Assembly: GCA_020833055.1 (NCBI GenBank)
Contig: JAJHQZ010000011.1
Location: 1-32,342, forward strand
DNA: 32,342 nucleotides
Direction of reading: 5' to 3'
Source of the DNA: Candidatus Korarchaeum sp.
Lineage (GTDB): Archaea; Korarchaeota; Korarchaeia; Korarchaeales; Korarchaeaceae
Part shown: one piece after another, positions 7,409 through 29,972 of the stretch
Layout: each line of letters starts with the position of its first letter
Numbering within the stretch: the stretch's first letter is position 1
Translations under genes and position numbers: made by a program
Notes under the pieces: generated by a model
What the model saw: only the letters and a program-made list of their open reading frames with translations
The model's database searches: none
What the model was told of the DNA's origin: nothing

Positions 7409-7849
7409 ATGGTTATGGTCGGGAAAGCTAGTGAGAGGCTCAAGTCAATGTTGAATCAAGCTATAGCCAGGGAGCTACAGGTCTCGATCCAGTACATGTG
7501 GCAGCATGTCCAGACAGTGGGGCCCATGCATGTGCTCCTATCCGGGGAGCTCAGGAGAATAGCGATAGAGGAGATGAAGCACGCTGAGGAGATAGCTGAG
7601 AGGCTCTGGTACTTAGGAGGGACCCCCACGACAGTACCGGATCCTATAAAAGTCGGGGAGGATCTGAGGGAGATGATAGAGCAGGATGTTAAGGATGAGG
7701 AGAAGGCGATAACTCTCTACAAGCAGATAATAGAAGTAGCGAATGAGGAAGGCGATATCACTACAGCTGAGATATTCAAAAAGATACTGAAAGATGAAGA
7801 GGAACATCATGACTTTTTCACGGCAGTACTCGAGGGATTGCCATCTTGA
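7409..7849 (+). CDS. ferritin-like (bacterioferritin-type) four-helix diiron protein
   Basis: This is a 146-residue four-helix bundle with carboxylate-bridged diiron ligands: Glu22 in AIARELQVSIQYM, Glu55/His58 in EEMKHAEEI, a Glu in DVKDEEKAITLY, and a final ExxH in DEEEHHDFF. Members oxidise and store iron or remove peroxide. No rubredoxin-like Cys pairs are present, so it is not a full rubrerythrin. The frame is open from 7310, but the upstream stretch lies before the predicted transcript start and has no helical character. ATG 7409 (or 7415) gives the family N-terminus. It is a single gene, divergent from the lplA cluster and 67 bases before an Lrp-type regulator. It is distinct from the ferritin domain fused to encapsulin at 17921. 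Confidence 0.88.
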   Translation: MVMVGKASERLKSMLNQAIARELQVSIQYMWQHVQTVGPMHVLLSGELRRIAIEEMKHAEEIAERLWYLGGTPTTVPDPIKVGEDLREMIEQDVKDEEKAITLYKQIIEVANEEGDITTAEIFKKILKDEEEHHDFFTAVLEGLPS

Positions 7850-9369: not shown

Positions 9370-10449
9370 GTGAGTATCGGGAAAGTTATGAAAAAGAGAG
9401 ATGGAGGGATCAACGATACAGATCTCGCTAAGCTATCCCCCAGAATAATACCTTATAGTAAATATAATGAAGTCCTGGAGGGACTTTCCAAGGACTTATT
9501 TTCAAATATAATAGAGATCGTGGAGAGAGCTGAGCTCTACATCCCGAAGCTGAGGGAGATATTACCTATAACCCCACTGAGTAATGAGCTCATAAGCTTG
9601 AGGGTCGCCGCTGTCGATGCTGGAGCCAATGGGAAGGACCTCATAATAGGCTATCAGCCGATAAGCATAGCTGTAGGGGCTGCTTTCAAGGACGGAATCA
9701 GGATATGCGATCCCCTCTTAGCTACTCTCAAGCCCCCATCATCCAGCTCGGATGATGAGGAGGGCATTAAGCTCTCCTCTATGATAGGGTATTATTTGAT
9801 GTACAATTTAGCATCAATACTCCTCGAGAAGAGCGATCTAATACTAATAGATGGGCCCCTCTTCCTGCCCAAGTCCTATTACGCGCCGAGGGGCAGGAGT
9901 TACTCTAACTCCTACTTAGAGGTATACGAAGCCACTCTACGCTCCCTCTCATCCCTGCTGAAAGAAGCTGAAGCATCCGGTAAATACGTTTTGGGCGTTG
10001 TAAAGAGGATAAGGAGCCATTATATCTCCCAATGGCTCGGGATAGATAGTCTCTCAGACTCACTGATCTCATCGCTCTTGATAAGAGAGGGGGAGGCCTT
10101 AGGCCCCATACCGATGAGCGGGGGATGGGAGGAAGTCGCTAGTTATTTGGGGGATGCTAGTAGCTTCAGACCATGGGCTATATTCTTGAGGAGGGGGAGG
10201 GCTCCTATAAGGCTCGATCTCCCCGAATATTCAGTGGATAAAGCGTACACTCTAGCTTCTTACATATACTCAATATCCGAGCCGAGCACTGGTCTCCCGA
10301 TGCCTATATTAGCTGTAGATAGGCTCTCGAAAGTCACTGATAAGCAGAGCTCCCTCGTATACAGGATGATACTGAGGGAAGCTAGGAGGAGGGGGATCAG
10401 TTCTGAGAAATTGACCTTATTCTCGATTCAGAGAGGTGAAATTGATTGA
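9370..10449 (+). CDS. nurA: NurA 5'-3' nuclease
   Basis: NurA is the Mn-dependent nuclease that works with the HerA translocase to resect DNA ends in archaeal recombination. The NurA domain shows VAAVDAGANGKD (Asp83, first metal ligand), DLILIDGPLFLP (Asp161) and PILAVDRLSKVT near the C-terminus, all conserved acidic positions. The 359-residue length is in the family range. GTG 9370 is the first start; ATG 9388 (MKKRDGG) is an alternative, with TTTATTAA at 9351-9358 as a possible TATA box. The stop overlaps the TTG start of herA by four bases, so the two are translationally coupled. No mre11 or rad50 gene is in the window. Confidence 0.93.
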   Translation: MSIGKVMKKRDGGINDTDLAKLSPRIIPYSKYNEVLEGLSKDLFSNIIEIVERAELYIPKLREILPITPLSNELISLRVAAVDAGANGKDLIIGYQPISIAVGAAFKDGIRICDPLLATLKPPSSSSDDEEGIKLSSMIGYYLMYNLASILLEKSDLILIDGPLFLPKSYYAPRGRSYSNSYLEVYEATLRSLSSLLKEAEASGKYVLGVVKRIRSHYISQWLGIDSLSDSLISSLLIREGEALGPIPMSGGWEEVASYLGDASSFRPWAIFLRRGRAPIRLDLPEYSVDKAYTLASYIYSISEPSTGLPMPILAVDRLSKVTDKQSSLVYRMILREARRRGISSEKLTLFSIQRGEID

Positions 10450-12944
10450 GGGAGATCGTAGGGCACGTGATATCTAGGTCGACGCCCAAGAGGATATTAT
10501 TCGTAGTACTGAAGAATGCTAAAGTATCTCTAGGAGATTTCTACGTCATAGACCACCCTTGGGAGAGCGTCCCCGTCTTCATAAGGGTTAAGGATATTCA
10601 GACTATAAATGAGGAAGTTGACCTAGGGAAAGCCGGTCTCTTAGCGAGTAGTTCAGGGTTGATATCTGATTATAGTAGCGATCTAGAGTACATGGTAGCT
10701 GAATGTGAGGTACTGGGCTACAGGTCCGAATCTGGGATAAGGGGATTGGAAGCCCCTCCCTCAACTCTCTCACCAGTTATGAAGCCAGATCCTAGGGAAC
10801 TGAGCTCCTTCCTGACCCCCAGGTTCTCTCAAGGGCTCCCGCTGACGATAGGTAGGGTGAAGGGGACTAGGGTCCCCTTCACAATAGATGTAGCAGCTAT
10901 AGCGAGAGGCCACATGTTCGTCACTGGGATGACTAGGAGTGGGAAGAGCGTGACAGGGGATGCTGTGATAGTGGTGTACGACTCATTGAGGAGGAGATAT
11001 TTCATAGGTCCGATAGAGAAGTTCTTCAATAGTTTGTTAACAAAAGAAGCTCCAGATGAAGTCCTCTTGGATTTAAGGGGACTGGGATATGAGACACTAT
11101 CCCTCTTGCCGGACTTCATGCCCAAGTGGTCTAAGGTGATCGGTATATACAGGCACAAACTGGATAAGGATATTTACGAAGTGGAGACGTCCACGGGGAG
11201 GAAGGTGAGGGTAACTGAAGATCACAGCCTCCTAGTCTCAGACGGGACTAGCTTACTCAAGGCCACTCCCAAGAAACTTATCGGATCGAGCGACATTTAC
11301 TTAATAGTACCTAGAGGGGCTCCATTGAGGCCGGCTGGCTATCCAGCACATCTAGATAGGCTCATCGGCATCAGCTTAGCTTCGGGGGTCGCTCTGAAGG
11401 ACGGGGTCCTGATAATGGATCCCGATATAGCTGAAGTGAAGTTAGCATGCTTAGAGGCTGGAGTAGATTTCATAACGCTCAAGAACAGGGGTATCTTCGT
11501 CAGATCACCGGAATTAGCTAAAATAGTTTCTTCAGGCTTGAGTTCCCTCCTGAACCTCCCTGAGGAGATCGAGGAGCTCGGAGTGAGGTTCCATCCCCTA
11601 GCTAGGGCCCTGAGGGAGCTCCTACTCAGGACGACTGTGCACGAAGCGAGAGGGGATGCGTGTCTCATAATGTCCGAGGACCAGAGGGCCATGATCCTAT
11701 CGACAATATTATCTATATTAGGCGTATCCACGGTCAGGTTCTGCCCTAAGGGCTTCTTAGTCGATTCTATCTCATTCAAGATGTTAATGGACCGGTTGGA
11801 GAGTTGGAATGGGAAGCTGGGGATGGACGGCGGTACTGTACTGAGGGAAGCTAAGAGAGTGGAGGGGCTCATCTACAGGGCATCTGTCAACTTAGAGAGA
11901 GTAGTGAGGGTCAGGAAAGTTTATACGAACGCTAAATACGTTTACGATCTGGACGTACCTGAAGCTCAGAACTTCTTAGCTAACGGTACCTTCGTCCACA
12001 ACAGTAGCTTCGTCTCTAGCTTGATAGCGAAGTCCTCAGAGCTGAGACCCAGGCCCAGGTTCCTCGTCCTAGATAGGAGGGGCGAGTACGAGAGGCTCTC
12101 TAGCAGGGGAGGAGTGATATACGATTACTCAGCTTTCCTCCCGAGGAGCATGAGCCCAGAGGCCCTAGCTAAGAGACTGGGGTATAAACCCGGTACCCTA
12201 TCTTATCGAGTGCTCCTCTCAGCTCTTAGGGAAGCTGATAGCGATGCCTCAGAGGCTCTGAAGAAGCTCAGGCAAGTGGCTAGGGAGATGAGAGTCAGGC
12301 CCTCGATAGTAGGGGAGATAGAGTCGAGATTGAAGAGGGAGATACAAAAGCTAGGGGATGGAGAGGGGCTCAGTATAGTGGATGAAGTCAAGAAGAGCCC
12401 TATAGTAATAGTGGATTTCTCATCGGATAGGAAGTACGATGACCAGTTCCTAGCTATCAAGAACATGATAGAAGAACTGTCTAATTACGCTGTTTCCAGG
12501 AGGAGGGAGGGTGATTTCGCTCTGATAGTTGTAGTCGAGGAAGCTCAGTATATCGTCCCAGAGAGGGGCTTCTCAATAGTCGGGGACCCCTACGATTCGG
12601 GTGTAGCTCAGACGTTGATAGAAGCGATAAGTCAAGCTGGGGGCTACAACTTAGGGTTCGTGATCGTGACGCAGAGACCTGCTTACGTGAGCAAGAGCGT
12701 CATAAGCCAGGCGAATACTGTCGTAGCCTTCAGGCTGAGGAACGGGAACGATCAGGAGGCTATATCTAAGTACACGGAAGTTGAGGACGTGTCATCTTAC
12801 CTCCCTATGCTCTCGGATCACGAAGCCCTGATATGGGGGATGGGGAGTTGCGTCCCCTTCCCAGTCCAAGTGGAAGTCGAAGTAGTCTCCCTACCGTCTA
12901 AGTCATCTAGCTCACCAGAGAGAGCTTGGGAGAAGATGTTATAA
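10446..12944 (+). CDS. herA: HerA bipolar DNA helicase/translocase containing an intein
   Basis: HerA is a hexameric FtsK-like ATPase that moves DNA for NurA. The precursor has 832 residues: an N-terminal HAS-barrel domain (about 1-100), the start of the ATPase core with GMTRSGK (161-167), a 352-residue intein (168-519), then the rest of the core from SSFVSSLIAKS. Splicing would rebuild Walker A as GMTRSGKSS and give a mature protein of 480 residues, normal for HerA. Downstream are the Walker B motif ALIVVVEEAQYIVPE and the sensor stretch VTQRPAYVSKS. It starts at TTG 10446 within the nurA stop region. The unspliced protein cannot bind ATP, so activity depends on splicing. Confidence 0.95.
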   Translation: MREIVGHVISRSTPKRILFVVLKNAKVSLGDFYVIDHPWESVPVFIRVKDIQTINEEVDLGKAGLLASSSGLISDYSSDLEYMVAECEVLGYRSESGIRGLEAPPSTLSPVMKPDPRELSSFLTPRFSQGLPLTIGRVKGTRVPFTIDVAAIARGHMFVTGMTRSGKSVTGDAVIVVYDSLRRRYFIGPIEKFFNSLLTKEAPDEVLLDLRGLGYETLSLLPDFMPKWSKVIGIYRHKLDKDIYEVETSTGRKVRVTEDHSLLVSDGTSLLKATPKKLIGSSDIYLIVPRGAPLRPAGYPAHLDRLIGISLASGVALKDGVLIMDPDIAEVKLACLEAGVDFITLKNRGIFVRSPELAKIVSSGLSSLLNLPEEIEELGVRFHPLARALRELLLRTTVHEARGDACLIMSEDQRAMILSTILSILGVSTVRFCPKGFLVDSISFKMLMDRLESWNGKLGMDGGTVLREAKRVEGLIYRASVNLERVVRVRKVYTNAKYVYDLDVPEAQNFLANGTFVHNSSFVSSLIAKSSELRPRPRFLVLDRRGEYERLSSRGGVIYDYSAFLPRSMSPEALAKRLGYKPGTLSYRVLLSALREADSDASEALKKLRQVAREMRVRPSIVGEIESRLKREIQKLGDGEGLSIVDEVKKSPIVIVDFSSDRKYDDQFLAIKNMIEELSNYAVSRRREGDFALIVVVEEAQYIVPERGFSIVGDPYDSGVAQTLIEAISQAGGYNLGFVIVTQRPAYVSKSVISQANTVVAFRLRNGNDQEAISKYTEVEDVSSYLPMLSDHEALIWGMGSCVPFPVQVEVEVVSLPSKSSSSPERAWEKML
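10947..12002 (+). mobile_element. intein inserted in the HerA P-loop, homing endonuclease degenerate
   Basis: The element interrupts Walker A exactly between Lys167 and the following Ser. Block A begins with Ser1 (SVTGDAVIVVYDS) and block B carries TEDH (His260 of the precursor). Blocks F and G read YVYDLDVPEAQNFLANG and FVHN, with His518-Asn519 and Ser520 as the +1 nucleophile, so all splicing residues are present. At 352 residues it is longer than a mini-intein, and a LAGLIDADG-like motif, RLIGISLASG (305-314), is recognisable. Its catalytic acidic residue is replaced by Ser313 and no second motif is clear, so homing activity is probably lost while splicing is retained. Confidence 0.9.
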
Positions 12945-16769: not shown

Positions 16770-17538
16770 CCCATCAACTCCTCATGCGAAGCTTTAGCTA
16801 TTACTACCATCTCGGGGCTGCTCCCTGAGAAAGGAGCTATCTCATAGCCCGGGTAGATCTCGCATACTGAGAAACCGCAGCTCCTCAATATATGCCTTAT
16901 CTCCCTAGGGGCGAAGAGCCTCAGCTTTATCTCATGATCCAGTACTTCCACGCTCCCCCTCGGTAGATCTACTATAGACCAACTTATATCGAGATCTGCT
17001 ATCTGATCCTCGAGATCTATCTTCCATGAGCTCTCCTTTATAGCTAGAGAGCTCCCGGATTTCCTTAGCTCGGGGGTCGGCATCTCGTAGTAGACCCTCT
17101 TCTCTATCACTCCCAAGATATTCCAAGTGTCGAATATGAAGAGACCTCCGTCCACTAAGCTCCTCCTCACAGCTCCTAGTAACTTCACGAGCGATTCATC
17201 CTCAGTGAAGTAACTTATCACACCGTACATAGCTATAGCTACATCGAACCCTCTCAATTCCATGCTAGAGGCATCTCCTACTAAGAATTTTACGTTCTCC
17301 ATCCCCTTAGCTTTTTCCCTCGCTCTATCGATCATATCCTCAGATACATCTATGCCTACTACTTCATATCCCCTCCTACCGAACTCTATGCTGTGCATCC
17401 CAGTCCCGCATCCCACGTCTAGGACCCTCCTCGCCCCCCCTTGTAAAATTTTTTAATTACTTCCTCCAAAAAATCGACCTCTTCACTCACGTTTCTATTT
17501 GCATAAAGCAGATCGTAGTATTGAGCGTATCGATCCAT
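16760..17538 (-). CDS. class I SAM-dependent methyltransferase, frameshifted in a G7 tract
   Basis: The intact part (from 17416) shows the SAM-binding motif DVGCGTGMHSIEFGRRG, the acidic end of beta 2 GIDVSEDM, VGDASSME (motif II), and FDVAIAMYGVISYF (motif III/IV). The upstream in-frame start would cut off motif I. The missing N-terminus lies in the adjacent frame: ATG 17538 reads MDRYAQYYDLLYANRNVSEE and VDFLEEVIKKFYKGG up to a run of seven Gs (17434-17440 on the plus strand as C7). With eight Gs the frame would continue as ARRVLDVGCGTG. Full length would be about 259 residues. The substrate is unknown. It sits between a small gene and tatC. The break could be a homopolymer sequencing error, a phase-variable tract or decay. 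Confidence 0.8.
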
Positions 17539-17892: not shown

Positions 17893-17900
17893 TTTATATT
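17893..17900 (+). promoter_or_regulatory. TATA box of the encapsulin gene
   Basis: TTTATATT lies 21-28 bases before ATG 17921. This predicts a leaderless transcript beginning at or next to that codon and rules out the long upstream extension of the frame. Confidence 0.55.
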
Positions 17901-17920
17901 ATCTCGCTGTCATTCAGCTC

Positions 17921-18964
17921 ATGCTCAGCAAGAACCCCATCGAGCTCCCGGAGGGGAGGAAGTTCTCCAAGGATGAGGTAGCCCAAGCACTCAGGCTCGG
18001 CATAATAGCTGAACTAGATGCCATAAATCTCTACCTGCAGTTAGCTAAGAGCATAGATGACGAGGCAGTTAAGAGGGTCTTCGGGGATATAGCTAAGGAG
18101 GAGAAGACGCACGTAGGGGAGTTCCTCGCTTTACTTAAGAGTTTGGATGAGGAGCAAGCCTTGGAGATAGTTAAGGGTGCTGAAGAAGTTTCTAAGCTCA
18201 CTGGAATAAAAGTAGAGGACCCATCAGGTCCTAGAGAGGATTCTGAGGGCTGGGAGGAGCTCCAGAATTTAGTCAAGGATTACGCGAATTCCATCAGGAG
18301 GGTCAGGCCCAGCCTCCCCGTCACTCCACTAGGCAGGGGGATCGATGCAGTGCCAGTCGAGGAGGTATCCTTAGATGGGAGCATAAAATCGAGGAGGTAC
18401 ATAGTACAACTGAGGGAGATATCCCAGACTTTTGAGATAGCTCAAGCCTCCCTAGATTACTCGAAATCCATAGGGAAGCTTGAGGTACCTCAAGCCCTTA
18501 CTGCAGCGAGCAAACTGGTTTTCGAGGAGGAGAAAGCAATTTTAGATGGGATAAAGGAGAAAGCGGGGATGAAGGTGGGAATATCTTCTTGGGATGAGCC
18601 CGGATCCGCTGTCAATGAGGTCGCATCAGCTCTATCCAAACTACTCTCCAACGGGTTCCCCGGGCCTTTTCTATTATTCCTCAGCCCCCCTAGGTACGCG
18701 AAACTAGTCTCAGTCCATGAGAGGACCGGTATAATGGAGCTTCATAGGCTCAAGGCCCTGATAAAGGATGTGATAGCCTCTCCAGCTATCAGCGATGAGG
18801 AAGCGGTCCTAATATCATCGAATCAGCAAGTGCTAGATGTAGTAATAGGCGCCGATACGGTCCTGGATTACATAGGGCCTATAGATGGATCTCACGCTTT
18901 CAGGCTCTGGGAGACACTGGCAGTCAGGGTGAAGGATCCCAGGGGCATTGTTTTAATGAGATGA
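17921..18964 (+). CDS. encapsulin shell protein with fused N-terminal ferritin-like domain
   Basis: Residues about 1-100 are an encapsulated-ferritin-like domain: LRLGIIAELDAINLYLQLAK (Glu31) and IAKEEKTHVGEFLALL (Glu61, His64), which forms a ferroxidase site by pairing two chains. After a linker, residues about 125-347 are an HK97-fold encapsulin (LPVTPLGRGIDAVPVEEVSL, RRYIVQLREISQTFEIAQ, PGPFLLFLSPPRYAKLV, LDVVIGADTVLDYIGPIDG, RLWETLAVRV). The order and the 347-residue length match the Pyrococcus furiosus virus-like particle subunit (about 345 residues), which also begins MLS.NP. The product should assemble into an iron-storing protein nanocompartment. The start at 17921 is set by the TATA box and this homology. 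It ends 2 bases before rnpB, which is transcribed toward it. Confidence 0.95.
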   Translation: MLSKNPIELPEGRKFSKDEVAQALRLGIIAELDAINLYLQLAKSIDDEAVKRVFGDIAKEEKTHVGEFLALLKSLDEEQALEIVKGAEEVSKLTGIKVEDPSGPREDSEGWEELQNLVKDYANSIRRVRPSLPVTPLGRGIDAVPVEEVSLDGSIKSRRYIVQLREISQTFEIAQASLDYSKSIGKLEVPQALTAASKLVFEEEKAILDGIKEKAGMKVGISSWDEPGSAVNEVASALSKLLSNGFPGPFLLFLSPPRYAKLVSVHERTGIMELHRLKALIKDVIASPAISDEEAVLISSNQQVLDVVIGADTVLDYIGPIDGSHAFRLWETLAVRVKDPRGIVLMR

Positions 18965-18965
18965 G

Positions 18966-19256
18966 GGGAGTGGGGGCCATAGTCCGCCTTCTGTACTGGG
19001 GGGATTTGGCTAAGCGCCTACCTCCCGCTCGCCCCAGCTCCTCATAGCGGGAATCGGCTTGCACGCCGCCGGGGCCCCGTTTCACCGGTCCCTCGGGGAT
19101 TCTCAGCCTCACCGGCATCACAGTCATCCCCCCGAGGACGTGTCGTTTCTGTGGGCCTCCCCACCCCTCTCGAGGTGCCTCCTTGCGGAGGGGCGGCGCT
19201 GGGGGCGTGGGCGGACCTTCCCCAGCTTAGAGCCGTAACCCCCGGCCCCCTCTCCC
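18966..19256 (-). ncRNA. rnpB: RNase P RNA (archaeal type)
   Basis: The GC-rich minus-strand sequence contains the archaeal RNase P core: GGGGAAGGTCCGCCC (CR-I), ACAGAAACGACACGTCC, CCGGTGAAACGGGGCCCCG and the 3' CAGAAGGCGGACTATGG (CR-V region). Helix P1 pairs the 5' strand GGGAGAGGGGGCC (19256-19244) with GGCCCCCACTCCC at the 3' end (18978-18966), 12 of 13 bases complementary, which sets the ends at about 291 nt. It cleaves the 5' leader of tRNA precursors. A TATA box at 19276-19283 is correctly spaced. No open frame here looks coding. Confidence 0.93.
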
Positions 19257-19284: not shown

Positions 19285-19656
19285 TTACTTGAATATCTCC
19301 GGGCATATATTACAGCTGCGGTCGATCCCATCGATTGAACGATGGAACTCGCAAAGGAGCTTCCTCGATAGCAGCTCGGATGCTATCTTATAGATGCTGA
19401 AATTTATGTCCACTCTCTTCCCAGCTATTACCGATTCAGCTAGCTCATCAGTGAACTTCAACGCCTCTTCTAAATCCTCGAGCCTCAATATAGCTCCTCT
19501 CTTCATATTCAAGTATCTTGAGACATTTGAAACAGAAATACCTAAGATTTCCGCTATCTCAACCTCCAGGAGGCCCCTACTCCTCAAGTTCATTACTAAG
19601 AGCCTGTAGAGACTGGGGATTAAGTACCTATCAGCTAAGAAGAATGGGCTCTTCAT
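19285..19656 (-). CDS. helix-turn-helix regulator with C-terminal cysteines (COG2522-like)
   Basis: This is a 123-residue archaeal transcriptional regulator. The N-terminus (ADRYLIPSLYRLLVMNLRSRG) leads to an XRE-type helix-turn-helix, LLEVEIAEILGISVSNVSRY followed by LNMKRGAIL (about residues 29-60). A helical region and a Cys-containing end (CEFHR, then CNIC) may bind metal or sense redox state, as in COG2522 proteins. Its ATG directly follows the stop codon of the DUF438 sensor gene, so the two form an operon and may work together. It ends 28 bases upstream of rnpB. Confidence 0.82.
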   Translation of the reverse strand: MKSPFFLADRYLIPSLYRLLVMNLRSRGLLEVEIAEILGISVSNVSRYLNMKRGAILRLEDLEEALKFTDELAESVIAGKRVDINFSIYKIASELLSRKLLCEFHRSIDGIDRSCNICPEIFK

Positions 19657-20931
19657 TTAGAGCACCATTATCCTCTTCTTTATTTCCTCAGGGTTCTCCA
19701 ATATTTCCGTGAGGTCCTCAACTATCTCCAGAGTACCCAGATATTTCCCATCATCGTCCCTGATGCCAACTACTATCACCCTCATTATCCTGTCACCGAC
19801 CCTAGTCCAGAACTCCCTGCGGGGGAACTCCCCTCCCTTTATCTTCTTGACGTTGAGCATCACGTAACCCTCCAACCTGGGCGGGTGGCAGAAGTTCAAC
19901 CTCCTCCCTATTATAGTCTTAGTCCTCACGAAGCCTCTCATGGTGGATTCTGTGTAGAACCTGACTCTATCGTTCTCATCAGCGAAAGTCAGCTCGATGG
20001 GCAAGTTCCTCAGGATCTTCTCCAGTTCCTTGACGCTCAAGAAACCAGTCTCCATCTCAATATCCCCTTCCTTCCTTATCTCATATTCATCGGGAGTCGC
20101 TGATGAAGCTAGAGCCCTGAACTCCATGGGCAATGCCGATAAATCCTTAACCTCCGGTACCAATTGATACGGATAGATGGGCTCTGCTTCAGGTGACCAC
20201 TTCCCCAGCTCAACTCCCATATCCCCGAGGGTCTCATAGATCGCTGCCCACTCCCCCTCTGAGAATAGAGTCCAGCAAGCTGGGTAAAGTATCTTATTCT
20301 CCCTGAACACAAGATCTATGATCTCCTCCGATATTTCCTCAGAGAGGGAGGCTACTTTTTCCTTAGCATCTTCTTTCCCACTCTTAAACTCCTCTAAAGC
20401 CTCTCTCAATTCCCTCATCTTCACTATGATTTGATCCTCCCTCCCCCAGAGGACTCTTGGGACGGCCGTTATCCCTCTCCTCTCTAAATAGGGGAATATC
20501 AGCATCTGATTCTTCCTGTAATGGGATCTCAACTTCCTCAACTCACCTACGAGCTCCTCTATGGAATTAAGGACATCCTTCCCCTCCTTCAGAGCTCTAG
20601 CATAGAGCCCCAGCGCCTCAGCGTCCTTGATTAGCTCATCGTTCTCCCTCATGAGTATGTCTAGCGGATGCCCTTCTGGGACACCCTTGAGCTCTCTCTT
20701 AGCTAAAGAATCCCTGAAGAGTGCTACATGCAGATCGCATAGGCTCAGTATCTCCCTCACACTTACCCCCTCCTTGACGAGCTCTTGTTCTATCAGTGGG
20801 ATCTCAAATGGCGATATATCAGATAATAAATCACCATACTTCTCCTTAAGCTCCTCAACGCTAGATCCACTGTGGAGGAGCTTTATCACATTCTTCAAGA
20901 GCTCCTTCCTCTCATCGAAACTACTCATCAT
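19657..20931 (-). CDS. DUF438-hemerythrin-PAS domain protein
   Basis: The layout is an N-terminal DUF438 domain (about residues 5-75, with LLHSGSSVEELKEKYGDLL and SPFEIPLIEQELVKEGVSV), a hemerythrin-like helical bundle (about 95-235; HPLDILMRENDELI, LRSHYRKNQMLIFPYLERRG, FRENKILYPACW), and a C-terminal PAS domain (about 310-420; LPIELTFADENDRVRFY, GRRLNFCHPP, EFWTRVGDRIMRVIVVGIRD). The hemerythrin His/Glu residues suggest a diiron site sensing O2, NO or redox state, with signal output through the PAS domain. ATG 20931 or 20928 (MMSSFDERK) is preferred to the frame's first codon at 20958, which lies within the TATA box. It is co-transcribed with the COG2522-like regulator. Confidence 0.88.
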   Translation of the reverse strand: MMSSFDERKELLKNVIKLLHSGSSVEELKEKYGDLLSDISPFEIPLIEQELVKEGVSVREILSLCDLHVALFRDSLAKRELKGVPEGHPLDILMRENDELIKDAEALGLYARALKEGKDVLNSIEELVGELRKLRSHYRKNQMLIFPYLERRGITAVPRVLWGREDQIIVKMRELREALEEFKSGKEDAKEKVASLSEEISEEIIDLVFRENKILYPACWTLFSEGEWAAIYETLGDMGVELGKWSPEAEPIYPYQLVPEVKDLSALPMEFRALASSATPDEYEIRKEGDIEMETGFLSVKELEKILRNLPIELTFADENDRVRFYTESTMRGFVRTKTIIGRRLNFCHPPRLEGYVMLNVKKIKGGEFPRREFWTRVGDRIMRVIVVGIRDDDGKYLGTLEIVEDLTEILENPEEIKKRIMVL

Positions 20932-20957
20932 ATCACCATAGTTATAATAAGCTCGCA

Positions 20958-20981
20958 CTTTATAAACTTGCCATATGGCAA
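20958..20981 (-). promoter_or_regulatory. TATA box with adjacent 14-bp palindrome before the DUF438 gene
   Basis: On the minus strand a TTTATAAA element (about 20958-20965) lies 27-34 bases before ATG 20931. Directly upstream of it, where the BRE would be, is the perfect palindrome TTGCCATATGGCAA (20968-20981). A dimeric regulator bound there would block or recruit TFB/TBP; the co-encoded COG2522-like protein is a candidate. Confidence 0.5.
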
Positions 20982-25133: not shown

Positions 25134-25916
25134 ATGGGCCCAGCTGTCCTTATGAGTTCCTACCCCCAGATCTCATTATCAGGCAAAGTGGCCCTAATTA
25201 CAGGAGGTTCCTCCGGTATAGGAAGAGCTATAGCCCTCAAGCTCTCTCAAGCGGGGGCTAAAATAGCTATTTTGGATATAAAGGAGTGCGAAGACTTGCT
25301 GGATGAGATAGGGAGGGATAAGGCTAGATTTTACAAGTGCGATGTCACATCAGCTGATGAGGTCAGGGAAGTCATTAGGAGGGTTTATGAGGAATTCGGC
25401 AGGATAGATATTGTTGTAAATTCTGCTGGTGTAATAGTCAGGAAGGATGCTGTTGAAACCAGTGAGGATGAGTGGGATAAGGTCTTGAACGTCAACCTGA
25501 AGGGTCCCTTCCTTGTCTCAAAATACTCGATACCTTACATGATCAGGGGAGGTGGTGGCAGCATAGTCAACGTAGCCTCGGGATGGGGGCTGAAGGGAGG
25601 CCCCAGGGCAGTGGCTTACTGCGCCTCCAAGGGAGGCCTAATCAATATGACTAGAGCCATGGCCATAGACCACGGTAAGGACGGGATAAGGGTCAACTGC
25701 GTCGCTCCGGGGGATGTGGATACCCCTATGCTCAGGAGCGAGGCCGAGCAGCTCGGTATGAAATGGGAGGATTTCCTGAGGGAGGCCTCTAACAGGCCTC
25801 TAGCCAGGATAGGGAAGCCTGAGGATATAGCTAATGCTGTCCTCTTCTTAGTGAGCGATATGGCCAGTTGGATAACTGGAGCTACTTTAGTAGTGGATGG
25901 AGGTGGTACTGCATGA
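25134..25916 (+). CDS. short-chain dehydrogenase/reductase (FabG-like)
   Basis: This is a classical SDR oxidoreductase. The cofactor motif is TGGSSGIGRA (residues 23-32). Asp48 at the end of beta 2 points to NAD(H) rather than NADP(H). Also visible are VNSAG (95-99), the active-site Asn121, Ser149 (NVASGWG), Tyr162 and Lys166 (YCASK), and the C-terminal GATLVVDGGG. All four catalytic residues are present and the 260-residue length is normal. ATG 25134 is favoured by the TATA spacing (ATG 25152 is possible). It is the first gene of the operon; its stop overlaps the gcvPA start (ATGA). The substrate is unknown; the context suggests a small hydroxy or keto compound linked to glycine/one-carbon metabolism. 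Confidence 0.92.
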   Translation: MGPAVLMSSYPQISLSGKVALITGGSSGIGRAIALKLSQAGAKIAILDIKECEDLLDEIGRDKARFYKCDVTSADEVREVIRRVYEEFGRIDIVVNSAGVIVRKDAVETSEDEWDKVLNVNLKGPFLVSKYSIPYMIRGGGGSIVNVASGWGLKGGPRAVAYCASKGGLINMTRAMAIDHGKDGIRVNCVAPGDVDTPMLRSEAEQLGMKWEDFLREASNRPLARIGKPEDIANAVLFLVSDMASWITGATLVVDGGGTA

Positions 25917-27286
25917 GCCATCCCTACATCCCGAACTCAGTCGAGAGGGTTAAGAGGGAGATGCTCTCCTATATAGGGGTATCGAGCGTAGAGGAGCTCT
26001 ACGCGAGCATACCTGAGGAGATAAGGTTCAAGGGGAGGATGAACCTGCCAGAGCCACTCAGATCTGAGTACGAGCTCTACAAGCATATGAGGGAGATCCT
26101 CTCTAAGAACGTGAGTTGCGAGGATTATTTATGCTTCAAGGGAGGGGGGACTTGGCCCCATTACGTCCCAGCGATATGCGATGAGATAGCTGGAAGGGCC
26201 GAGTTCCTCACCGCATATGCTGGGGATCCCTACGAGGACCACGGGAGGTGGCAGGCTCTCTTCGAGTTCGAGAGCTTGATGGCGGAGCTAGTAGATATGG
26301 ATGTAGTAACAGTCCCCATTTACTCCTGGGGGCACGCTGCCGGCACGGCGATGAGGATGGCCCACAGGATAAACGGGAGGAGGGAAGTCCTCATACCCAG
26401 GACCATATCGCCGGAGAGGTTCTTAGTGGTAAATAACTACGTTGACCCGGCCCTCAAGCTGATCGAAGTGGATTACGATAGGGAGAGAGGGATGATGGAT
26501 TTAGAGGACCTTGAGAGGAAGATATCGAGGGAGACAGCGGCCGTATACTTCGAGAACCCATCTTACTTAGGTTTCATAGAGACTAGAGGGAAGGAGATTT
26601 GCGAGATAGCTCATGAAATGGGGGCTATATGCATAGTAGGTGTGGATCCGAGTTCCCTGGGCGTGTTGGAGCCTCCTAGCCACTACGGGGCTGATATAAC
26701 AGTGGGGGATCTTCAGCCTCTGGGGATACATATGAACTTCGGGGGAGGGCTGGGTGGCTTCCTAGCCACTAGGGATGAGGAGGAGTTCGTTAGGGAGATC
26801 CCGTACAGGATATTCGGTCTAGCTAAGACTGTGAAAGAGGGAGAATACGGTTTCGGAGACGTCTTATTCGAGAGGACATCCTTCGAGAAGAGGGAGAAGG
26901 CTAAGGAATTCGTTGGGACAGCTGCAGCTTCTCACGGAATAATTGCAGCCGTTTACCTATCCCTCCTAGGACCTAAGGGTATGAGAGAGCTCGGAGAAGC
27001 GATACTCCAGAGGTCCGCTTACGCTATGAAAGCCCTCTCGAGCATAGGCCTCAAGGCTCCCAAGTTCAAGGCCCCTCACTTCAAGGAGTTCGTCGTGGAA
27101 TTCCCAGGGAGGAAGAGCGTCGAGGAGATAAACAAGGAGCTCCTGAAGGAGGGGATATTCGGAGGCATAGATCTCAGGAAGCACTTCCCGGAGCTAGGGA
27201 ACTCAGCCCTTTACTGCTTCACTGAAGTCCACACTAAGGAGGACATAGACAGGCTAGCTGATGCCCTCAAGAGGATACTGGGGTGA
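25913..27286 (+). CDS. gcvPA: glycine dehydrogenase (decarboxylating) subunit 1
   Basis: This is the alpha subunit of the two-subunit P protein of the glycine cleavage system, which decarboxylates glycine with PLP and passes the aminomethyl group to lipoylated H protein. Family features are HPYIPNSVERVKREMLSYIG, CFKGGGTWPHYVPAI, FLTAYAGDPYEDHGRWQALF (Y/QPE equivalent), and GGGLGGFLATRDE. At 457 residues it is normal for GcvPA. ATG 25913 overlaps the SDR stop and gives the conserved N-terminus; the frame's earlier codon at 25868 lies inside the SDR gene. gcvPB follows directly. Confidence 0.95.
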   Translation: MSHPYIPNSVERVKREMLSYIGVSSVEELYASIPEEIRFKGRMNLPEPLRSEYELYKHMREILSKNVSCEDYLCFKGGGTWPHYVPAICDEIAGRAEFLTAYAGDPYEDHGRWQALFEFESLMAELVDMDVVTVPIYSWGHAAGTAMRMAHRINGRREVLIPRTISPERFLVVNNYVDPALKLIEVDYDRERGMMDLEDLERKISRETAAVYFENPSYLGFIETRGKEICEIAHEMGAICIVGVDPSSLGVLEPPSHYGADITVGDLQPLGIHMNFGGGLGGFLATRDEEEFVREIPYRIFGLAKTVKEGEYGFGDVLFERTSFEKREKAKEFVGTAAASHGIIAAVYLSLLGPKGMRELGEAILQRSAYAMKALSSIGLKAPKFKAPHFKEFVVEFPGRKSVEEINKELLKEGIFGGIDLRKHFPELGNSALYCFTEVHTKEDIDRLADALKRILG

Positions 27287-27291
27287 GGAGT

Positions 27292-28848
27292 ATGGGGGTA
27301 GTGAGAGTGAGGAAGGGGTTCCACGAGGCGAGATGGGAGGAGCCCATAATATTCGAGTTGAGCAATGAGGGGGAGAGGGGCATTCTGATACCCCTCGATG
27401 ATAAAATAAGGAGGGAAGTTGGTGACGTCCTATCCTCGATACCAGAGCACATGAGGAGGAAGGATCCGCCGAAGCTACCCGAGGTATCTCAGATGAGGGT
27501 CTTAAGGCACTACCTGAGGTTATCCCAGGAGACCCTGGGGGCCGATCTGAACATAGACATAGGGCAGGGAACTTGCACTATGAAGTACAGCCCTAAAGTG
27601 AATGAGAGGTTCGTGGCAATGGTCAGAGAGCTTCATCCATATCAAGATGAGGAAACTGTCCAGGGAGCTCTAGAAATAATGTACAAGCTCGATCTCTTCC
27701 TCAGGGAGATATCTGGACTAGATAGGTTCAGCTTCCAGCCCGGTGGAGGATCTCAGGCTATATTCGCTATGGCCTCCATAATAAGGGCTTACCACAAGAA
27801 GAGGGGCGAGGAGAGGGATGAGATAATAACTACGATATTCTCCCACCCATCTGATGCGGCAGCCCCAGCTGTGAAGGGATTCAAGGTGATAACTATATAT
27901 CCAGACCCGGAGACTGGCATACCGGATATAGAAGCCCTGAAGGCTGCCGTATCCAAGAGGACAGCTGGCATGATAGTAGCGAATCCCGAGGACACTGGGA
28001 TATTCAATCCGAGGATAAAGGAGTTCTGCGATATAGTCCATGAAGCTGGAGGGCTCTGCGGTTACGATCAAGCGAACGCTAACGGCATAATAGGGATAGT
28101 CAGGGCTAAGGAGTGCGGCTTCGATATGGGCTTCTTCAACCTCCATAAGACCTTCTCATCCCCCCACGGATGCGGAGGACCAGCTGTAGGGGCCCTGGGG
28201 GTGAGGAAGGAACTTGAGAGCTTCCTACCGGTCCCTGTAGTCGATTACGATCCAGAGAGGAAGCTCTATTACCTGAATTACGACCTCCCGGATACGATAG
28301 GGAAGGTCAGAGAGTTCTACGGTGTATTCCCAGTAGTAGTGAGAGCTTACGCTTGGATAATGGCTTTAGGGGAGGAGGGACTGAAGGAAGTCGCTAGAGT
28401 GGCTGTCCTGAATAATAATTACGTGATGCACAGGATACTGAGGGAGGTCAGGGGAGCCGATATATCTTATCCAGCCAATAAGAACAGGATAGAGCAAGTT
28501 AGGTATAGCCTCAAGAAGCTGAAGGATGAGACCGGAGTCGGAGCCGAGGATGTTATAAGGAGGATGGCTGACTTCGGGTTCCATCTATGGACGAGCCACC
28601 ACCCATGGATAGTACCTGAGCCCTTAACTATAGAGCCGACTGAATCCTACTCCAAGGAGGAGCTTGATGAGTACATAGAGGCCCTGAAGGAAGTAGTGAG
28701 GGAGGCTTATGAGGAGCCGGAGACCGTGATAAATGCCCCGCATAGGAGCGTGATCCATAAGATAGAGGATAACAGCTGGTTCTCAGATCCGAAGAAGTGG
28801 TCCATAACCTGGAGGCTCTTCCTGAAGAAGCACGGTGGTAAGCTTTGA
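27292..28848 (+). CDS. gcvPB: glycine dehydrogenase (decarboxylating) subunit 2
   Basis: This is the PLP-binding beta subunit of glycine decarboxylase. The PLP lysine lies in NLHKTFSSPHGCGGPAVGAL (Lys286 from this start). Other hallmarks are FSFQPGGGSQA, TIFSHPSDAAAPAVKGF, MIVANPEDTGIF and GGLCGYDQANANGI (the Asp that contacts the PLP ring nitrogen). About 518 residues is typical. ATG 27292 has GGTGAGGA upstream; the in-frame GTG at 27283, overlapping the gcvPA stop, is an equal alternative. It works as an alpha2beta2 complex with GcvPA. The following COG3199 gene overlaps its stop, so all four genes are one operon. Confidence 0.95.
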   Translation: MGVVRVRKGFHEARWEEPIIFELSNEGERGILIPLDDKIRREVGDVLSSIPEHMRRKDPPKLPEVSQMRVLRHYLRLSQETLGADLNIDIGQGTCTMKYSPKVNERFVAMVRELHPYQDEETVQGALEIMYKLDLFLREISGLDRFSFQPGGGSQAIFAMASIIRAYHKKRGEERDEIITTIFSHPSDAAAPAVKGFKVITIYPDPETGIPDIEALKAAVSKRTAGMIVANPEDTGIFNPRIKEFCDIVHEAGGLCGYDQANANGIIGIVRAKECGFDMGFFNLHKTFSSPHGCGGPAVGALGVRKELESFLPVPVVDYDPERKLYYLNYDLPDTIGKVREFYGVFPVVVRAYAWIMALGEEGLKEVARVAVLNNNYVMHRILREVRGADISYPANKNRIEQVRYSLKKLKDETGVGAEDVIRRMADFGFHLWTSHHPWIVPEPLTIEPTESYSKEELDEYIEALKEVVREAYEEPETVINAPHRSVIHKIEDNSWFSDPKKWSITWRLFLKKHGGKL

Positions 28849-29972
28849 AATTGGGGCTCATAGTGAATCCGATAGCTGGAATGGGAGGGAGGGTGGGCCT
28901 AAAGGGCACTGACGGGCCTGAGATGCTGAAGAAAGCTATAGAGTTGGGAGCGAAACCTTGGGCTGAGGATAGGGCTGTGGATGCATTGAAAGCGCTCCTG
29001 CCAATCAGGGATTCCCTCACCATTTACACTTACCCGCACAAGATGGGGGAGAATGCCGCTAAGAGGGCTGGCTTCAATCCGGAGGTCTTGGGGAGCGTAG
29101 GGGAGGAGACGACTGCCGAGGATACCGTTAGAGCTGCTGAGGATATGAGGAGAGTGGGAGTAGATATACTCCTCTTCGTGGGAGGGGATGGCACAGCGAG
29201 GGATGTCTGTAGAGCTATAGGGACTAGCTTAGTCACGCTCGGCATACCCGCTGGAGTCAAAGTCTACTCCTCAGTATTCTCAGCTAGCCCTAAAGCTGGA
29301 GGGGAGTTAGCTCTCAAGTTCCTGAGGGGGGAAGTGAGCGAGGTAATAGAAGCCGAAGTCCTGGACATAGATGAGGATTCATTCAGGGAGGGAAGATTAT
29401 CTGTGAAGCTATATGGCTACCTCAAGATACCTTACGATTCCAATTATATCCCGGGAGGCAAGGTGCCGTCATCCCATTCCGAGAGTTACGATAGGGAGGC
29501 CATAGCGGCTGAGCTCCTCGAGGTAATGGAGAGAGATGTCATATATCTCATAGGGCCAGGGAGCACGACTAAGGAAGTGATGAGAGCGCTCAACTTAGAT
29601 TTCAGTCCTCTCGGCGTTGATGCGATCTTGAACGGTGAGTTAATTGGGAAGGACCTCAATGAGAGGCAGATAATCGAGCTAATCTCGGGGAGGAAGGTTA
29701 AAGTAGTAGTCACTCCCATAGGAGGCCAGGGATATGTGTTCGGGAGGGGGAATCAGCAGATAAGCCCAGAAGTCCTGAGGAGAGTGGGGAGGAACAATAT
29801 CATAATAGTGGCTACGAGGGGGAAGCTAGAATCCCTAAGGGGGAGGCCCCTCCTCTTAGATACTGGAGACGAAGCCCTCGATGTCGAGCTCTCGGGCTAC
29901 TACAAGGTGATGACTGGATATAGGGAGTACACAGTGTACAAAGTAGTTCCAGCATCTATTCTCGAGAGCTGA
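28845..29972 (+). CDS. ATP-NAD kinase-like protein (COG3199/AcoX-like)
   Basis: This is a 375-residue member of the NAD kinase/diacylglycerol kinase superfamily. The N-terminal MKLGLIVNPIAGMGGRVGLK and the nucleotide motif LLFVGGDGTARDV (near residue 110) are clear, followed by a conserved TLGIPAGVKVYSSVFS and a C-terminal GGQGYVFGRGNQQISPEVL. This group includes the poorly understood AcoX-type proteins rather than canonical NadK. It starts at TTG 28845, overlapping the gcvPB stop (TTGA). Its place in the gcvP operon suggests a role in supplying a cofactor or handling a product of the pathway, but substrate and reaction are not known. Confidence 0.88.
   Translation: MKLGLIVNPIAGMGGRVGLKGTDGPEMLKKAIELGAKPWAEDRAVDALKALLPIRDSLTIYTYPHKMGENAAKRAGFNPEVLGSVGEETTAEDTVRAAEDMRRVGVDILLFVGGDGTARDVCRAIGTSLVTLGIPAGVKVYSSVFSASPKAGGELALKFLRGEVSEVIEAEVLDIDEDSFREGRLSVKLYGYLKIPYDSNYIPGGKVPSSHSESYDREAIAAELLEVMERDVIYLIGPGSTTKEVMRALNLDFSPLGVDAILNGELIGKDLNERQIIELISGRKVKVVVTPIGGQGYVFGRGNQQISPEVLRRVGRNNIIIVATRGKLESLRGRPLLLDTGDEALDVELSGYYKVMTGYREYTVYKVVPASILES

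Follow-up and report, generated by a model that had tools for sequence, protein, structure and literature searches.

The window, by which we mean the whole stretch of 32,342 nucleotides analysed here, comes from a korarchaeon close to Ca. Korarchaeum, in line with the korarchaeal host suspected in a preliminary description of this DNA, and carries a gene that joins a ferritin-like protein (Flp) domain and an encapsulin shell in one chain. Its product is very probably the subunit of a self-loading nanocompartment that derives from an old archaeal fusion, the shell part of which has been deleted repeatedly while the free Flp was kept. The interest lies in this recurrent loss of the shell, and the window gene and its shell-less relatives provide one of several natural experiments, in which close relatives with and without a shell at the same site bear on the purpose that an encapsulin shell serves.

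The gene and its domains are as follows.

17921..18964, + strand: Flp-encapsulin fusion gene, 347 aa (single open frame, PF04454 and encap_f1 above cut-off, full-length match to 2e0z)
17921..18205, + strand: ferritin-like (EncFtn/Flp) domain, residues 1-95 (5n5e alignment, residue conservation, predicted helices)
18011-18013, 18101-18103 and 18110-18112, + strand: codons of Glu31, Glu61 and His64, respectively
18206..18241, + strand: linker, residues 96-107 (lowest model confidence; length varies among fused proteins)
18242..18961, + strand: HK97-fold encapsulin shell domain, residues 108-347 (PF04454 over residues 108-334; top Foldseek matches are encapsulins)

The shell is recognised by Pfam Linocin_M18 (PF04454; residues 108-334) with 105.5 bits against a cut-off of 24.3, and by NCBIfam encap_f1 (residues 109-345) with 116.3 bits against a curated cut-off of 100, which places it in family 1, the classical encapsulins. 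The N-terminal domain scores below the curated NCBIfam cut-offs for EncB_fam (80.5 against 90 bits) and TIGR04535 (57.3 against 125 bits), so the protein is not filed under either, but it aligns end to end with the solved EncFtn domain of Pyrococcus furiosus, 5n5e (E 6e-25). Over its full length, the protein is most similar to the P. furiosus particle 2e0z (residues 1-346 against 1-344, E 4e-56), and the similarity in length pointed out earlier holds, at 347 aa against 345 aa. A structure model built on 31 fused proteins (mean pLDDT 88.9, pTM 0.67) predicts a confident shell, Flp helices at residues 17-44, 48-75 and 77-94, and a flexible linker at residues 96-107, within which confidence falls below 50 in segment 102-106. 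When this model is compared with the PDB by Foldseek, every one of the top 50 matches is an encapsulin or an encapsulin-derived nanocage; 2e0z is among them, with a TM-score of 0.90 by target length over 242 columns. The preliminary description had named a different HK97 family, for example a phage capsid, as the reading that would overturn the assignment; PF04454, encap_f1 and Foldseek all identify the shell as an encapsulin, the fold being nearest to encapsulins rather than to phage capsids. Sequence, Pfam and NCBIfam families and predicted structure thus agree on an Flp domain followed by a family 1 encapsulin shell, and the claim that one chain holds both is borne out by the single frame, the Linocin_M18 and encap_f1 matches, the full-length alignment to 2e0z and the predicted structure.

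As in other Flp fusions, the Flp domain is N-terminal to the shell and bears Glu31, Glu61 and His64 (EXXH motif), the three ferroxidase residues that had been singled out in the window protein. They are present and invariant among fused proteins (37/37 domains), remain intact in the orthologues, where their absence would have spoken against the assignment, and are kept in every free or bacterial relative with data at the position. The closest orthologue, in the congener G010, is 96% identical, and those in G011 and G012 are ~64% identical. A longer mechanical ORF that opens at 17537 was rejected as the gene, the in-frame extension being stopped 24 codons upstream in the 96%-identical congener. 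Because the extension is interrupted there and a conserved TTTATATT(A/G) box lies 19-20 nt 5′ of the ATG in each of the four korarchaeal fused genes that are complete, a start at ATG 17921 is supported. In the window this box takes the following form.

17893..17901, + strand: TATA-like box TTTATATTA, putative promoter, 19 nt 5′ of the ATG, at a position common to the four korarchaeal fused genes

Its spacing is compatible with a leaderless transcript, and it may act as a promoter. Several neighbours deserve mention in their own right. An archaeal RNase P RNA gene (18968-19254, - strand; RF00373, 173.6 bits) is convergent with the fused gene and ends 4 bases from its stop codon. A small helix-turn-helix-like protein (19285-19656), named by eye, adjoins the gene of a DUF438-hemerythrin-PAS protein (19657-20958, - strand), probably a di-iron sensor, near the fused gene. 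Further away, a HerA-like helicase frame (10446-12944, + strand), which adjoins NurA, contains an intein splicing domain (PF14890, residues 227-519).

It was also proposed that two iron systems coexist in this DNA, which is correct at the level of genes, the second iron protein of the window being the following.

7409..7849, + strand: free cage-type ferritin, bacterioferritin-like (PF00210, 110 bits; nearest solved proteins are bacterioferritins)

The wider distribution of the fusion is less novel than first thought. The gene had been presented as extending fused encapsulins well outside Thermococci, but a 2021 census already found all Flp-fusion systems to be archaeal and mostly crenarchaeal (PMC8346489), so a fusion beyond Thermococci is not new, and about 30 fused loci were recovered here from Thermoproteota orders, Thermococci and Archaeoglobi. 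A scan of genome contigs found fused single-frame genes in Ignisphaera, Desulfurococcales, Sulfolobales, Thermofilales, Pyrodictiaceae, Acidilobaceae, Fervidicoccus, Thermococci and Archaeoglobi. In a second phylum, 152 of the 397 genomes searched match the fused protein and 77 have PF04454, nearly all of these 77 being accounted for by fused genes. The window gene widens the sampling of an already known architecture, and a search of one literature library for encapsulins together with Korarchaeota or Korarchaeum returned no paper. Broken fused genes, with stops or split frames, occur at L202 (G428) and L203 (G439), in relatives within one genus. A viral origin was considered and rejected, since two scans of viral contigs found no relative of the fused protein and only distant Flp matches; the Flp-like domains encoded on contigs L136-L149 are 45-64% identical to the window Flp domain over parts of its length.

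Within the host phylum, the shell is the rarer half. PF04454 is found in 5/29 genomes, all from the genus of the window and all with a fused gene (one of them, in G005, is cut by a contig end), 16/29 have a free Flp without shell, and 8/29 have neither. The free-Flp genomes contain no PF04454 protein anywhere; several are at least 95% complete, and bins may be incomplete. Among the matches listed, no genome has both a fused gene and an independent free Flp; where a fused genome gives additional matches, these are pieces of that one gene.

In the shell tree, the 38 archaeal fused shells group together (100/99) to the exclusion of 25 bacterial shells. Two branches make up this clade, one of Thermococci/Archaeoglobi (100/100) and one of Thermoproteota together with Korarchaeia (98/94), and the five korarchaeal shells form a deep clade of their own (100/99). 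The main splits, including the Thermococci/Archaeoglobi and korarchaeal clades, recur in a tree built from only the fused Flp domains, so that separate trees of shell and Flp, the check proposed at the outset, give the same main groups. Whether the fusion is ancestral or transferred, as asked in the preliminary description, has an answer in part: for the shell, the AU test rejects a grouping of the korarchaeal sequences with Thermococci (p 3e-144) and hence a recent transfer from there. A position alongside the Thermococci/Archaeoglobi clade as a whole is not rejected (p 0.20), with which a deep origin and old transfers are both compatible. Four free archaeal PF04454 proteins were considered as split encapsulins and rejected, for they branch outside the fused-shell clade and match phage major head proteins. 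In other archaeal families, the free PF04454 proteins L195-L200 have their matches among phage major head proteins (phrog_264) and are likely to belong to proviruses; a search with PF04454 alone would label them encapsulins.

Free proteins do not stand apart from fused ones in the Flp tree but are interspersed with them across archaea. A tree that unites every fused Flp in a single clade is rejected (p 2.5e-9), and well-supported branches force at least 8 changes between the free and fused states by parsimony, a count that gives no direction of change. The alignment has only ~100 columns, so that many forks are unresolved and the bootstrap is not settled. A grouping of every korarchaeal Flp, whether fused or free, in a single clade is not rejected (p 0.46), a result with which vertical descent of the Flp within Korarchaeia is compatible.

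Further evidence comes from sites at which a fused and a free gene occupy the same place. In Korarchaeia, the positional anchor for comparing them is a gene cluster that is also present in the window.

25134..29972, + strand: cluster of SDR, GcvP subunit 1, GcvP subunit 2 and NAD kinase (Pfam, synteny)

In G012, the fused gene stands directly before this cluster and points away from it, and in Methanodesulfokora (G023) a free Flp takes the same place and direction; the Flps of the two genomes fall in one supported group (99/92). The fused gene of the window lies ~6 kb from the G012 site, so the window shares its position with G023 only via G012, and within the genus of the window the free Flps mostly occupy other, unrelated genome sites. 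In genus g34 of family f28, the gene is fused in G053 and G148 and free in G154, within a gene block that is collinear on both sides, and a rubrerythrin-like gene comes next in G148 and G154. Among Thermococcaceae, two fused loci (L082, L084) and a free one (L022) share genes on both sides at 57-88% identity, and the next gene is ~700 nt nearer to the free Flp than in the fused loci. In Archaeoglobaceae, a fused locus (L086) and two free ones (L122, L125) share only the next downstream gene. The free and fused genes of Thermofilum (g83) are at different places and offer no in-place case.

These pairs, from Korarchaeia, g34, Thermococcaceae and Archaeoglobaceae, give position only, and the direction is given by a shell stub in a Thermoprotei bin. 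At L099 (1858-2268, + strand), an intact Flp and the linker are followed by three in-frame stops through ~40 shell-like residues, after which a different gene begins in the opposite direction. Shell remnants were looked for beside the other free Flps, and L099 was the only positive. The shared positions, the L099 stub and the single clade of fused shells together favour loss of the shell. Repeated shell loss with the ferroxidase retained is the best reading of these sequences, and it appears that the shell was lost rather than gained. Its extension to the whole domain, namely that archaeal free Flps are largely former fused encapsulins, derived from one ancient fusion by many independent in-place deletions of a dispensable shell, seems to us somewhat better than an even proposition.

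Altogether, these findings suggest a model, built largely on homology, in which the window gene would encode a self-loading subunit. Because each chain carries its own ferroxidase domain, shell assembly would enclose the Flp domains; Fe(II) that entered the particle would meet, on its inner face, centres of Glu31, Glu61 and His64, each formed where two Flp chains come together, and once oxidised there it would be deposited in the shell lumen. Flp-fusion encapsulins of P. furiosus and Sulfolobus assemble as T=3 shells (PMC8346489), and by analogy assembly and T number may be similar here. The korarchaeal gene would have been inherited from an old fusion common to all archaeal fused encapsulins, the Flp being the more durable half and the shell being deleted in many archaea, including most sampled Korarchaeia, with a free Flp of ~95-105 aa remaining. 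Isolated EncFtn is a ferroxidase that oxidises iron but cannot mineralise it, storage requiring the shell (PMC5012862, PMC11202242). The literature thus ties storage by this ferroxidase to the shell, yet archaea from Thermococcaceae to Korarchaeia would have kept the enzyme after losing the shell. Compartments of 35-40 nm are reported from Tardisphaera, which lacks an encapsulin gene (PMC12542729). If the shell is the dispensable half, iron storage cannot be the sole function for which the fused particle was selected.

It is accordingly worth asking whether the main task of the fused particle is to detoxify Fe(II), peroxide or oxygen rather than to store iron, the shell being dispensable under some conditions, a proposal that we regard as plausible but short of probable. 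It would account for repeated shell loss with retained ferroxidase residues, and it agrees with the Thermococcaceae context, which includes ferritin-like and rubrerythrin-like genes and a Fur-like regulator (the last named by eye); Flp-fusion genes are often found beside ferritin-like or rubrerythrin genes (PMC8346489). Outside the phylum, a strong PF00210 match (at least 60 bits) is found in 19/30 genomes with a fused gene and in 9/30 with a free Flp, counts that ignore the relatedness of the genomes and weigh less for that reason. The possibility that a cage ferritin took the place of the lost shell was considered and is not borne out, PF00210 being rarer in the free-Flp genomes. The counts are compatible with an Flp that may consume Fe(II) and oxidants, with storage as an optional extra. 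However, the shell of Rhodospirillum rubrum is needed for storage and prevents aggregation (PMC5012862).

Repeated gain, in which a mobile shell domain joined free Flps already in place on several occasions, each time at the same junction, and the free form is ancestral in each lineage, is unlikely. Free Flps are indeed more widespread than fused ones, and the parsimony count is silent on direction, but no free encapsulin falls within the single clade of fused shells, the main splits among fused proteins are common to their Flp and shell trees, and a decaying shell stub is kept at L099. We consider it very unlikely that the gene is left over from an HK97-type provirus and encodes a capsid, domesticated or in decay, that plays no part in a compartment. 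Such a reading was reportedly once proposed for Sulfolobus, and the HK97 fold and the broken fused genes of the congeneric Sulfolobales-like genomes G428 and G439 are in its favour. Against it, neither the window protein nor six neighbouring unknowns have a match in PHROG, the neighbours are metabolic rather than viral and the shell matches no viral capsid family, an intact and conserved shell is found in five korarchaeal genomes, and the virus-like PF04454 proteins found in other archaea branch apart as a clade of their own. That the entire fusion was acquired recently from Thermococci, as its P. furiosus-like architecture and length might suggest, is scarcely credible given the rejected joint clade, the low shell identity, the deep korarchaeal clade and the free Flp at the corresponding Methanodesulfokora site.

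Among the closest known systems, the P. furiosus protein, whose fused particle has been solved (2e0z, 5n5e; PMC5012862, PMC11202242), has the same N-terminal Flp, short linker and shell in one chain and the same Glu/Glu/His residues; it differs in sequence (37% identity over the chain) and in gene neighbourhood, and its shell belongs to the Thermococci/Archaeoglobi branch, whereas that of the window belongs to the Thermoproteota/Korarchaeia branch. The crenarchaeal Flp-fusions of Desulfurococcales, Sulfolobales and Thermofilales (PMC8346489) share the architecture at 40-55% identity and the same shell clade, within which the korarchaeal proteins stand apart as a clade of their own. In bacterial EncFtn systems (Clostridia, Brachyspira and others), the same two domains are encoded by separate neighbouring genes, the Flp gene directly before the shell gene as in the order of the fusion, and the cargo carries a targeting peptide (PMC11202242). 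A related group without encapsulin, the free EncFtn-like proteins termed 'Non-EncFtn' or s-FLP, had already been noted (PMC5012862, PMC11202242); these have the same ferroxidase residues as the window Flp, to which the free Flps of other Korarchaeia are 56-73% identical, and differ from the window protein in that the shell is absent from the gene.
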